The notes under the pieces: generated by a model
Databases searched by the model: none
Told to the model about the DNA's origin: nothing
The model's input: only the letters and a program-made list of their open reading frames with translations
Position numbers and translations under genes: made by a program
From: Microcoleus sp. FACHB-672
Lineage (GTDB): Bacteria; Cyanobacteriota; Cyanobacteriia; Cyanobacteriales; Oscillatoriaceae
DNA: 64,000 bases
NCBI RefSeq assembly: GCF_014695725.1
Contig: NZ_JACJOU010000022.1
Span: 1-64,000, forward strand
Direction: 5' to 3'
Shown here: in pieces, positions 28,090-37,296 of the stretch
Layout of the letters: each line of letters opens with the position of its first letter
Numbering within the stretch: the first letter of the stretch is position 1

Positions 28090-30369
28090 ATGCTAGGACT
28101 TTTGCCAAACTTTTTTTCTGGAAGTTTTATTCCACATGGCCACTGCTACCTATGGAAGCCAAGTTTGGTAGGGTTGCATATAGTCTCCGACTCATTGATA
28201 GCACTAGCTTATTATTCAATTCCAATAATGCTGGTCTATTTCGTTGCCAAAAGGCGAGACGTGCCATTTTACGGCATCTTTTTGTTGTTTGGAACATTTA
28301 TCATCGCCTGCGGCAGCACACATATTTTGGAAATTTGGACCCTTTGGCATCCAAATTACTGGCTTTCGGGGTTCCTGAAAGCCTTTACTGCTGGGGTTTC
28401 TGTATATACAGCTTTAACACTGACACCGCTGATCCCTCAAGCGTTAGCGCTCCCCAGCCCAGCCCAACTGGAAGCAACTAACCACAGGCTAGAAAATGAA
28501 ATTCTCGAGCGCAAGCGGGTGGAGGAAGCACTACGACAAGCCCACAAGGAATTCGAGAAACACGTTGCAGAATGGACTGCCGAATTACAAGCAGCTAACG
28601 CGCTACTGCAACAGGAGATGGTTGAACACAAGCAAGCAGACGAAGCGTTACGCAAAAATGAAGCGCAATTCCGAGCGGTTTTTGAGTGGACAGCGGTTGG
28701 TATCATATTCGGTGATTTGGACGGGCGAATTGTGGAAAGCAATTTAGCCTTGCAAGAACTCATGGGATATAGCAGCGAAGAACTTCGCGGGATGATTTTC
28801 AGCAAGCTTATCCATCCGGACGATGTCACAATCGATCTAGAACTTTTTCAAGAAATGCGAGCAGGAAAAAGGGATGGTCACCGGCGAGAAAAGCGCTATA
28901 TCTGCAAGAATGGTTTGATTATCTGGGTTCATGTAACGGTTTCTCTAATCAGAGATCAAAGCGGGCAACCTCAATTTATTGTGGCAATAATCGATAACAT
29001 TACTGAGCAGCGGCAGGCTGAAGAGGCACTGCGGGAAAGTGAAGCGCAGTATCGCCGCATTGTTGAAACCGCCACAGAGGGAATTTGGGTTTTGGATGCG
29101 GAGGGCAATACAAATTTTGCCAATCAGCAAGTCGCTCAAATGCTTGGCAGTACGCCGGAGGAGATGATAGGTCAGCCTTTATTTGCGTTTATGGATGAGG
29201 AAGGTAAAGCAATCTCGCTGGAGAATATGGAGCGCCGCCGGCAAGGAATTAAAGAACAGCATGATTTTAAGTTCTATCGTAAAGATGGCTCTCATCTGTG
29301 GGCAATTGTGTCTACGAATCCCATCTTTGATCGAGCGGGAAACTATGCCGGTGTTTTAAAAATGATTACTGACATCACCGAACGCAAGCAGGCAGAATCT
29401 GCGTTGCGGGAACGTGAAGCGCGGTTGAGGAAGCAAACCAATCAGCTTGAACAAGCTTTCTACAAACTGCAACAGACCCAAAGCCAATTGGTTCAGAGTG
29501 AAAAAATGTCTTCTCTAGGACAAATGGTGGCGGGTGTCGCTCACGAAATTAACAATCCTATTAATTTTATTCACGGTAATCTAATGTACGCCAGTGAGTA
29601 CACCCTAAGCTTGTTGGAATTGCTGCATCTTTACCAGTTACACTATCCCGAGCCATTGCCACAAATTCAAGCCAAAACAGAAGCTGTGGATCTGGATTTC
29701 CTTATAGAAGACCTTCCAAAAATGCTTTCTTCGATGTCTGTAGGAACTGAGCGTATTCGCTCAATTGTCCTGTCATTGCGAAACTTCTCGCGACTGGATG
29801 AAGCAGAAATGAAGCCGGTGAACATTCATGAAGGTCTCGACAGTACGCTGCTAATTTTGCAACACCGACTTAAGGCTGGGGTTAAAAATTCTGAAATTCA
29901 GGTGATCAAAGAATATGGTGAATTGCCTTTAGTGGAGTGCCATGCCGGCCAGTTGAATCAAGTGTTTATGAATCTCCTTAGCAATGCAATTGATGCTTTA
30001 GAAAATGTGACTTCCCCACGAATCATTACGATTCATACTTCAGTGGGGTTTGGCGAGGAGGAACAGGAATCTTCAATCCATCATCACCAATCCCCAAATC
30101 TAGATCCCCAGTTTGTGATCATTCGCATTGCTGACACCGGCATCGGCATGAGTGAGGATGTGCGCCGACGTCTGTTCGATCCGTTCTTTACGACTAAACC
30201 TGTTGGCAAAGGCACAGGATTGGGATTGTCGATCAGCTATCAGATTATCATTGAGAAACACGCGGGTCAGTTGAAGTGTATTTCGTCCCCAGGCAAAGGC
30301 GCGGAGTTTGTCATAGAAATTCCCATTCACCAACATTCTAAAAAGCCGGTTTTATTTTCGGGAGTCTAA
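28090..30369 (+). CDS. Ethylene-receptor-like sensor histidine kinase (ethylene-binding domain, two PAS, HisKA/HATPase)
   Basis: This 759-residue kinase opens with three membrane helices matching the ethylene-binding domain of plant ETR1 and cyanobacterial SynEtr1. Helix 1 has SDSLIALAYYSIPIMLVYFV with Asp34. Helix 2 has FIIACGSTHILEIW with the copper ligands Cys74 and His78. Helix 3 ends at PLIPQAL near residue 118. A coiled coil follows (about 125-190), then two PAS domains (about 195-315 and 320-440), a linker helix, and a histidine kinase core with phospho-acceptor His485 in GVAHEINNP and an HATPase with [26 protein letters not shown]. Known cyanobacterial homologues bind ethylene through Cu(I). 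No response regulator gene adjoins it. Confidence 0.92.
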   Translation: MLGLLPNFFSGSFIPHGHCYLWKPSLVGLHIVSDSLIALAYYSIPIMLVYFVAKRRDVPFYGIFLLFGTFIIACGSTHILEIWTLWHPNYWLSGFLKAFTAGVSVYTALTLTPLIPQALALPSPAQLEATNHRLENEILERKRVEEALRQAHKEFEKHVAEWTAELQAANALLQQEMVEHKQADEALRKNEAQFRAVFEWTAVGIIFGDLDGRIVESNLALQELMGYSSEELRGMIFSKLIHPDDVTIDLELFQEMRAGKRDGHRREKRYICKNGLIIWVHVTVSLIRDQSGQPQFIVAIIDNITEQRQAEEALRESEAQYRRIVETATEGIWVLDAEGNTNFANQQVAQMLGSTPEEMIGQPLFAFMDEEGKAISLENMERRRQGIKEQHDFKFYRKDGSHLWAIVSTNPIFDRAGNYAGVLKMITDITERKQAESALREREARLRKQTNQLEQAFYKLQQTQSQLVQSEKMSSLGQMVAGVAHEINNPINFIHGNLMYASEYTLSLLELLHLYQLHYPEPLPQIQAKTEAVDLDFLIEDLPKMLSSMSVGTERIRSIVLSLRNFSRLDEAEMKPVNIHEGLDSTLLILQHRLKAGVKNSEIQVIKEYGELPLVECHAGQLNQVFMNLLSNAIDALENVTSPRIITIHTSVGFGEEEQESSIHHHQSPNLDPQFVIIRIADTGIGMSEDVRRRLFDPFFTTKPVGKGTGLGLSISYQIIIEKHAGQLKCISSPGKGAEFVIEIPIHQHSKKPVLFSGV

Positions 30370-33768: not shown

Positions 33769-36700
33769 ATGCAAGAATTGTTAAGAAATATTTTTTCACA
33801 GCAATTCATTCTTGATGGGCGAGGTTGGGCTATCCTGCCTCAGTGGGGAACGTGCGACCTCTGGCAGCCGGCCTTAGTGTGGCTGCATATCCTGTCGGAT
33901 TCCCTGATGGCGCTGGTTTATTACTCAATTCCAGTAATGCTGGTCTATTTCGTCCGTGGGCGTTCCGATCTGCGGTTTTCCTGGGTTTTTTGGCTGTTGG
34001 GAGCCTTTATCGTTAGCAGTGGGACAACTCATTTGACGGAAGTATGGGCGCTGTGGCACCCGCAGTCTTGGCTAGCCGGCAGCCTCAAAGCCTTGACTGC
34101 TGTTGTTGCTTTATGCACAGCCGGCGCAATGCTACCCCTGATTCCTCAAGCACTGGCTTTGCCATCCGATTTGGCAGCAAGCAAGCACAGACTCACATTA
34201 GAAATTTGCGATCGCGCTGTGGCAGAGGCACAACTGCGCCAAACGACGGCTGAGCTGCAAGCGATTTTTAAAGCAGTTCCCGATTTGTACTTCCGGCTTT
34301 ATGCCGATGGCACCATTCTTGATTACAACGCCGGACACCCTGAAGATTTATATTTATCGCCAGAAATGTTTTTGGGGAAACGAATGCAAGATGTTTTGCC
34401 GGCAGGCGTGGGAACTCAGATGGCTTCTGCGATCTCGCAAGTATTCGCTTCGCCAGAAGACACCTCTCCCCTGCCGATACAAATTGAGTATTCTTTACCC
34501 ATGCCGGCAGGAAAACAAACCTATGAAGCTCGGCTCATTCCTTTAATCGACAACCAAATTATTGTGATCGCCCGCAACATCACGATTACCAAGCGTTCCC
34601 AAGAACAGGTACGTTCCTCTCAACAAATGCTGCGGCTGGTGATTGACAATATTCCCGAACTTATTTTCTGGAAAGATAAAAATTCAGTTTATCTCGGTTG
34701 CAATCAGAACTTTGCACGGGCTGCCGGTGTGGCCACTCCAGACAAGATTGTCGGGCTAACAGACTTCGACTTGCCCTGGACAAAAGAGGAGGCCGGCTGG
34801 TTCCGCGAGTGTGACCGGCGCGTGATGGAAAGCGACACAGCGGAATATCACATCATCGAAACCCAACTGCAAGCCGATGGCAAACAGTCTTGGGCGGATA
34901 CCAATAAAATTCCACTCCATGATGCCGGCGGCAGCGTGGTGGGCATTCTGGGCACCTATGAGGACGTGACAGAGCGCAAACAGGCAGAGGAGTTGTTGCT
35001 CAGAAGCGAAGCCCGGTTCCAAAGGCTAGCCGCAAGTGTGCCGGGAGTGATTTACCAATATCGCCTCAGTGCCGATGGTTACCAGTCAATCTTATATGTG
35101 AGTCCAGCCTGCCGCGAACTTTATGAATTAGAACCCGAAGAATTTCAACAAACATTTGCCTATCACCTGATCCATCCTGATGATCGTCCATCCCTAGACC
35201 GGGCGATGGCTGTCTCTGCTTCTACCTTAGAGCCTTGGCATTGGGAGGGCCGGCTGATCACACCGTCGAGCGAGCGCAAGTGGTTGCAAACGGCGGCGCG
35301 GCCAGAATTGCAGCCTAACGGAGATATTCTCTGGGATGCCTTAGTCATCGATATCACCGAGCGCAAGCGGGTAGAAGAACAAGTTTACTTTCAAGCACTG
35401 CTGCTCGATGCAGTGGAACAAGCGGCAATCGCTGCCGATTTAGATGGCAAAATTACTTATTGGAATCGATTTGCCGAGACGCTTCAGGGTTGGCAAAAAG
35501 AAGAAGCCCTCGGTCGAAATTTTATAGAACTCTTACCCGTTGAGGCTTCCCGAACTGAGGCGGCAGAACTGCTGTCTCGCTTGAGAGCCGGTACAAGTTG
35601 GAGCGGCGAATTTGCCTTGCAACGTAAGGACGGCACAACTTTCCCGGTGATGACCACAAACTCGCCCATCTACGATGTCAATGGCGTCCTGATCGGCACT
35701 GTGAGCATTTCTCAAGACATCACGAAGCGTAAACAGGCCGAAGAAGCGCTGCGGCACTCGGAAGTACGCTCTAGAACCCTCGCGCAACGAGAAAAACTGC
35801 TGAACCGGCTCGCCAGCCAAATCCGCAACTCTCTTGATTTAGATACGATTTTAGGAACCGCAGTTCACGAAATTCGCAATCTGCTGCAAATTGATCAGTG
35901 TCTATTTATTTGGTATCGCCCAAACAGTTCTGAACTTTTTATTTTGAATTCTGAGTTACACGGGTCCATTGAAAATTCAAAATTAAATATTCAAAATATC
36001 TCTCATTGGGAAGTAGTGAAGGAGGCAAAAAATCCTGATCTGCCCAGCTTTCTCGGTTGTTACTCGGCTAAAAAAACAGACATTCTGATTAACAGGCAAC
36101 TGTTAAACCTGGAAATGTTGCGAGTGGATGATATGTCGGAGGCGAGTGAGCCTTGGGAGCGATATCTTCGCAAGCATTTGGGCTACACTGCTTTTTTAGC
36201 CTTACCCATTCAAACGCGCTCTGGTGACGTTGGTGTGGTTAGCTGCGGGCATTTTAGTGAGCGCCGGCCTTGGAGTGATAATGAAGTGGAACTGCTGCAA
36301 GCTGTGAGTGATCAGCTAGCGATTGCCATTAGCCAAGCCGAAAGCTACGCTCAAGCCCAGGAAGCGGCTAGAATTGCCCAAGCGCAAGCTCAACAGCTTG
36401 AGCAAGCGCTCAAAGCGCTGCAACAAACTCAAGCGCAGCTGATTCAAAGTGAGAAAATGTCTTCTCTAGGGCAGATGGTTGCCGGTGTTGCCCATGAGAT
36501 CAACAATCCGGTTAGTTTTATTCAGGGTAATCTTAATTTTGCGGTTGAGTATATCCAAAAGCTGTTGCAAATCGTGCAGCTTTACCAGCAAGTATATCCG
36601 AAGCCCGCACCTGTAATTGAAGCAGTTGCGGTTGCTATTGATTTAGATTTTATTATTGAAGATTTGCCGAAAATGCTCTCTTCTATGAAAATAGGAGCCG

Positions 36701-37296
36701 AACGTATTCGTCAGATCGTGCTGTCTTTACGGAACTTCTCGCGTCTAGATGAATCCCAGAGCAAATCTGTTGATATCCACGAAGGTTTAGACAGCACTTT
36801 GTTGCTGCTACAACACCGGCTGAAAGCCCAGCCTAAACATCCTGAAATTAAGCTAATTAAAGAGTATGGTCCTTTGCCGCCGGTGGAGTGCTATGCTAGC
36901 CAGCTCAATCAGGTGTTTATGAATATTCTGGCGAATGCGATTGATGCCCTCTTTCCTACGCGGGGAAGTTCCCAAAACCTTGAGGAAAAATCTATCATTC
37001 AAGATCCGCAGATTCGCCTACGCACCGAAGTCTTAGAGGGAGATCGGATCGCGATCATTATTGCAGATAACGGGCCAGGAATACCAGAGGACGTGCGTCT
37101 GCGAATTTTCGATCCTTTCTTTACAACGAAAGCTGTTGGATCGGGTACGGGTTTAGGGTTATCAATTAGCTATCAAATTATTGTTGAAAGGCATGGGGGT
37201 CAGTTGAGATGTATTTCCTCACCCGGTGGAGGTGCAGAGTTTATTATTGAGATTCCTATCAGGCAACCGACTCCAATCGTAACTGTGCGCCGATAA
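33769..37296 (+). CDS. Ethylene-receptor-like multi-PAS sensor histidine kinase lacking the copper cysteine
   Basis: This is a 1175-residue paralogue of the kinase at 28090. The N-terminal three helices align directly: [20 protein letters not shown] (Asp44) in helix 1, [19 protein letters not shown] in helix 2 and [10 protein letters not shown] after helix 3. The position equal to the copper-ligand Cys is Ser84 (codon AGT at 34018-34020), while His88 is kept. Then come about four PAS domains (about 155-280, 283-405, 410-535, 540-655), a GAF domain (about 690-860), a coiled coil and a histidine kinase core with His909 in GVAHEINNP and an HATPase with DNGPGI and TGLGLSI. The ligand of this domain without the Cys is unknown. 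Confidence 0.92.

Follow-up and report, generated by a model that had tools for sequence, protein, structure and literature searches.

The histidine kinase gene at 33769..37296 (forward strand; gene A) raises the question of whether a protein built like an ethylene receptor, with a serine in place of the copper-binding cysteine, can still sense ethylene. In published work, the copper site is formed by Asp25, Cys65 and His69 (PMC12643061), ethylene binding is abolished by mutating C65 or D25 in AtETR1 or the matching Cys in SynEtr1 (PMC11819568), and the ETR1 membrane domain remains folded with a Cys-to-Ser change (PMC8982231). The window, i.e., the whole 64,000-nucleotide stretch of Microcoleus sp. 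FACHB-672 DNA analyzed here, lies on contig C22 of the assembly that we call G000, which carries eight proteins with an ETR1_N domain; the congeners G001 and G002 carry eight each, and these were sorted into orthogroups labeled A to H in this analysis, with the gene at 33769 in orthogroup A. Gene A is an open frame encoding 1175 aa, with a membrane domain of the ethylene-binding type at the N-terminus together with about four PAS folds, a single GAF, and the HisKA and HATPase domains. Pfam analysis placed ETR1_N (PF25487) at residues 36-131 (33874..34161, forward strand; G000:C22:33874-34161) with an E value of 5.2e-36 and a score of 123.2 bits against the curated cut-off of 27, HATPase with an E value of 2.2e-24, and HisKA with an E value of 1.1e-5 and 25.8 bits, slightly below its cut-off of 26.9. 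As in a sensor histidine kinase, the HisKA region carries its His and the HATPase its N, G1, F and G2 boxes (H, N, G1, F and G2 motifs at 909, 1052, 1100, 1114 and 1124), which bears out the initial annotation of an intact 1175-residue frame with kinase motifs kept; the F-box pattern used gave no match in the G001 orthologue. Sequence searches of solved structures with the membrane domain returned no match (E up to 1), and the AlphaFold model of this domain, owing to its low confidence (mean pLDDT 54), was used only for its three long helices. Gene A resembles SynEtr1 (slr1212, Synechocystis) and other cyanobacterial ethylene receptors in its N-terminal three-helix ETR1_N domain and in sharing five kinds of site residue (Asp, Tyr, Ile, Pro and His), and resembles SynEtr1 also in a PAS/GAF and histidine kinase output, and differs from SynEtr1 in having Ser in place of the copper Cys.

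The copper-site residues were then read from the sequence and its translation and by aligning the protein to the neighboring paralogue and to a single orthologue, with ETR1 numbering presumed from the motifs. Positions 34015-34020 read AGC AGT (Ser83-Ser84), followed by GGG ACA ACT CAT, so that Ser84 (AGT, 34018..34020, forward strand) stands at the ETR1 Cys65 position four residues before His88 (CAT, 34030..34032, forward strand; ETR1 His69), the latter being common to all three species. Asp44 (GAT, 33898..33900, forward strand) occupies the ETR1 Asp25 position. Relative to a functional ethylene receptor, gene A therefore lacks the Cys ligand of Cu(I) and has the His and the Asp, together with other residues named as essential in ETR1: Tyr51, Ile54, Pro55 and Ile81, which we take to be ETR1 Tyr32, Ile35, Pro36 and Ile62. 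The plant etr1-1 allele changes Cys65 to Tyr; gene A is like it in that this Cys is naturally altered while the receptor is complete in other respects, and unlike it in having Ser rather than Tyr, in being a bacterial PAS/GAF kinase, and in showing the change in the one genome seen. The serine reported in the initial annotation, where the neighboring paralogue has Cys, was confirmed as AGT and aligned opposite Cys74 (TGC, 28309-28311) of paralogue C, a 759-aa ethylene-domain kinase of orthogroup C (28090..30369, forward strand) that has Asp, Cys and His all in place and sits 3.4 kb upstream of gene A in G000; the two genes lie within a few kilobases of each other in all three species.

An even draw of 77 genomes of the class, 38 of them with ETR1_N (90 matches, 85 domains scorable by a local profile), was combined with an even draw of 50 genomes of the order, 39 of them with ETR1_N and with 11 weak rows left out, to give 179 scorable domains. 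At column 90, where 167 of these 179 have Ser, gene A has Ala; this position is presumably ETR1 Ser98, as judged by motif, and Ala stands there in all three A proteins. ETR1 Ser98 is described as having a moderate effect on binding (PMC6586836). The claim that gene A keeps the whole domain architecture therefore holds for Asp44, YYSIP (51-55), His88 and PLIPQAL, and does not hold for the Ala at column 90, for the atypical domain start (GTCDLW) or for the rate at which the domain changes (see below). The other cysteines in the first 150 residues of gene A (29, 116 and 147) are all present in both congeners alongside Cys84, and for this reason none of them specifically replaces it; Cys116 in helix 3 was dropped as a specific compensating residue.

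The orthologues of gene A in G001 and G002 have Cys84 (TGT), His44 (CAT) in place of Asp44, and Ser55 instead of Pro55. The last of these was rejected as a mark of loss since Ser is common at that position (22 of 179 domains), while His at the Asp position was seen in one of the 179, namely the A protein of G001 itself. Hence the Cys has been lost here and the Asp in the congeners, i.e., different site residues in different species, and from the published C65, D25 and SynEtr1 Cys mutants weak ethylene binding or none is to be expected of all three A proteins. Codon 84 of gene A is a single T-to-A step from the congeners' TGT and is known from one assembly of the species, so a sequencing or assembly error at a single base, or a rare allele, with TGT as the true codon at 34018-34020, has to be weighed. 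We regard this as very improbable, given that the assembly (6.37 Mb in 34 contigs) is 99.84% complete with 0.75% contamination and the frame is intact, and it would leave the congeners' loss of Asp and the Cys-less orthogroup F (below) unexplained. The same A gene as that of G002 was also found on the MAG contig JAHHHM010000041.1, labeled Microcoleus vaginatus WJT46-NPBG5. Beyond the genus, a search of 388 genomes sampled from the order gave no orthologue of gene A (E 1e-55; mostly six candidates per genome scored), the 3 of 388 that matched all being in the genus, and among the matches listed for 310 sampled genomes of the class (E 1e-50; eight or fewer candidates scored) there were only the gene itself and paralogue-level relatives of 45-51% identity. 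A contig scan with the gene A domain gave a single relative, the congener's orthologue. Among the genomes searched, gene A is therefore a genus-specific paralogue of the cyanobacterial ethylene-receptor kinases.

Evolutionary rates of the membrane domain and of the rest of each protein were compared by the Nei-Gojobori method over the three species, a number that gives little power for branch tests, with domain spans of 98 codons in orthogroup A and 107-110 in the others. Between G000 and G001 or G002, the gene A membrane domain was 82-83% identical and the rest 94%, the domain/rest dN ratio was 3.4 (G001) and 3.5 (G002), and dN/dS was 0.41 and 0.44 in the domain and 0.12 in the rest. The other seven ethylene-domain orthogroups gave dN ratios of 0.24 to 1.35 over 21 pairwise comparisons, and the G001-G002 pair of gene A, with a ratio of 1.36, showed no excess in the domain. 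The replacement versus silent counts of gene A gave Fisher p values of 0.0051 and 0.0036 uncorrected, which become about 0.12 and 0.09 after correction over 24 comparisons, and given that number of comparisons the evidence for an excess in the domain is moderate. Equal-length windows outside the domain reached its replacement count in 0 of 955 cases against G001 and in 2 of 955 against G002. Since dS was equal in the domain and the rest (0.22-0.23 against both congeners), neither gene conversion nor transfer is favored as the origin of the domain's divergence.

Together, these data are best accounted for, with a probability that we put at roughly two in three, by a membrane site that is losing copper and ethylene binding under relaxed selection in a protein whose kinase part is retained and uses another input. 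The copper and ethylene site would be decaying, with the cytoplasmic PAS/GAF/kinase part held under strong purifying selection; going by the published mutants, gene A would have no high-affinity binding of Cu(I) or ethylene, its three helices would probably persist as a membrane anchor and a dimer or transmission module, and its activity might be controlled through the PAS/GAF domains or through a pairing with an ethylene-competent paralogue such as paralogue C. Gene A has thus probably stopped sensing ethylene, with its signaling half intact, and the ethylene insensitivity that the initial annotation had offered, for a partner protein, as one option is the best-fitting reading, the loss of Cys in an intact kinase being by this analysis real. 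Site loss is favored by the change of Cys to Ser here and of Asp to His in the congeners, by the Ala that all three carry where ETR1 presumably has Ser98, by the excess of replacements in the domain between G000 and each congener, and by the natural precedent of orthogroup F. Against it, six of the seven residues listed as ETR1-essential remain in gene A of G000, the Fisher values weaken on correction, the G001-G002 pair lacks the excess, and the domain dN/dS is about 0.4 and not 1, which means that some constraint remains.

The same excess of membrane-domain replacements, seen in the comparison with either congener, could also reflect a switch of ligand or metal, in which Asp/Ser/His in G000 and His/Cys/His in the congeners were adaptively rebuilt for another metal state or a small ligand. 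One residue of the Asp/Cys/His set is swapped in each lineage and His88 is kept in all three, and His could plausibly coordinate Cu(I). The changed residues, however, differ between the orthologues without convergence, many changes lie off the site, a shared new site was not seen, and dN/dS is below 1, so that we judge such a switch quite unlikely. Sensing of a different ligand or of redox state, as first proposed for this domain, is possible, and nothing found here points specifically to either.

Orthogroup F is a second set of paralogues without the Cys. In G000, its ethylene-type domain (G000:C7:200705-200989; L006, L026, L237; on G001:C17 and G002:C10 in the congeners) is part of an open frame that runs over 1976 codons and, by Pfam, also encodes GAF, PAS, HisKA, HATPase, two receiver domains and Hpt. 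The Cys position is Gly in all three species and the Asp position is Glu, Gln and Glu. In the family's other genera, the proteins closest to F retain the Cys (L050 in G003; L047, L049 and L052 in G005, G006 and G007). The F domain has a dN/dS of 0.11-0.24 and shows no acceleration over the remainder of the protein (domain/rest dN ratios 0.78-1.06), and this conservation indicates that a domain without these ligands can stay under selection. Orthogroup F resembles gene A in joining an ethylene-type domain that lacks the Cys to HisKA and HATPase, and differs from it in having Gly rather than Ser, in the additional loss of Asp, in being shared by the three species, in a domain that is not accelerated, and in its receiver and Hpt domains. 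The stably conserved Cys-less domain of F also speaks for gene A being an ethylene-insensitive subunit maintained by selection, which as a partner in heterodimers or as a constitutive receptor would set the threshold at which its paralogues respond to ethylene; six ethylene-domain proteins of G000 carry the Cys, and gene A outside its domain is 94% identical to each congener. We consider this decidedly improbable, because the congeners changed another site residue, which means that Ser itself is not the feature being kept, and because the literature consulted shows no heterodimers of cyanobacterial ethylene receptors. A broader proposal is that ethylene-type domains repeatedly become sensors or subunits that do not use Cys-His copper, with the genus showing an old and stable case in F and an ongoing one in A, where the site is rebuilt differently in the sister species (Asp/Ser/His and His/Cys/His); this is speculative and, on balance, unlikely.

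Across the class draw, the Cys was absent in 5 of 85 scorable domains, two of them in the genome studied here, and in the combined set it was absent in 16 of 179 (13 of 163 outside the genus, several of these being degenerate), the position being Cys in 163, Gly in 7, Ser in 4, Trp in 2 and Phe, Tyr and Leu in one each. The four Ser domains, gene A included, were scattered. The initial annotation had proposed testing whether Ser at this position forms a conserved clade, and this was not borne out: the congeners have Cys84, and parsimony on domain trees of 118 columns, in which many forks are poorly resolved, gave four separate changes for Ser and 13 for Cys presence with 201 rows (17 Cys-less), and three and seven with the 188 rows (10 Cys-less) that remained once long branches and sequences without the His had been removed. 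Orthogroups A and F each formed a starred three-row clade. Natural Cys-less ethylene domains were not named in the titles or abstract openings of the literature searched, most subscription papers lying outside it, which is weak evidence that such domains are unreported.

These genes provide natural ethylene-type receptors that lack the copper Cys, which can be compared with close orthologues still carrying it and with the eight ethylene-domain genes of each genome, and the set permits a direct test of roles of the membrane domain beyond ethylene binding. The 16 of 179 domains also indicate that the site has to be checked before an ETR1_N match is annotated as an ethylene receptor. Several individual sequences may be recorded. 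L280 (G038:C5:158780-159480), from another family of the order, has Ser at the Cys position in an otherwise canonical domain. L308 (G026:C40:29200-29900) has Tyr there, which we take to be the same change as in etr1-1. L229 (G003:C11:157000-163000), chemoreceptor-like by eye, has an ethylene-type membrane domain that is degenerate, Ser occupying the Cys position and no Asp being seen by eye. L064 and L172 (G006:C3:6430760-6431041), in a related genus, have an in-frame TAG in the ethylene domain. The orthogroup D protein L234 (G000:C33:152400-161300) is about 2668 aa long in G000 versus 2141 and 2135 aa in the congeners. L302, L311 and L313 (G048, G008 and G039) have the motif CGGTTH, in which the Cys comes one residue early and could serve as a displaced ligand.
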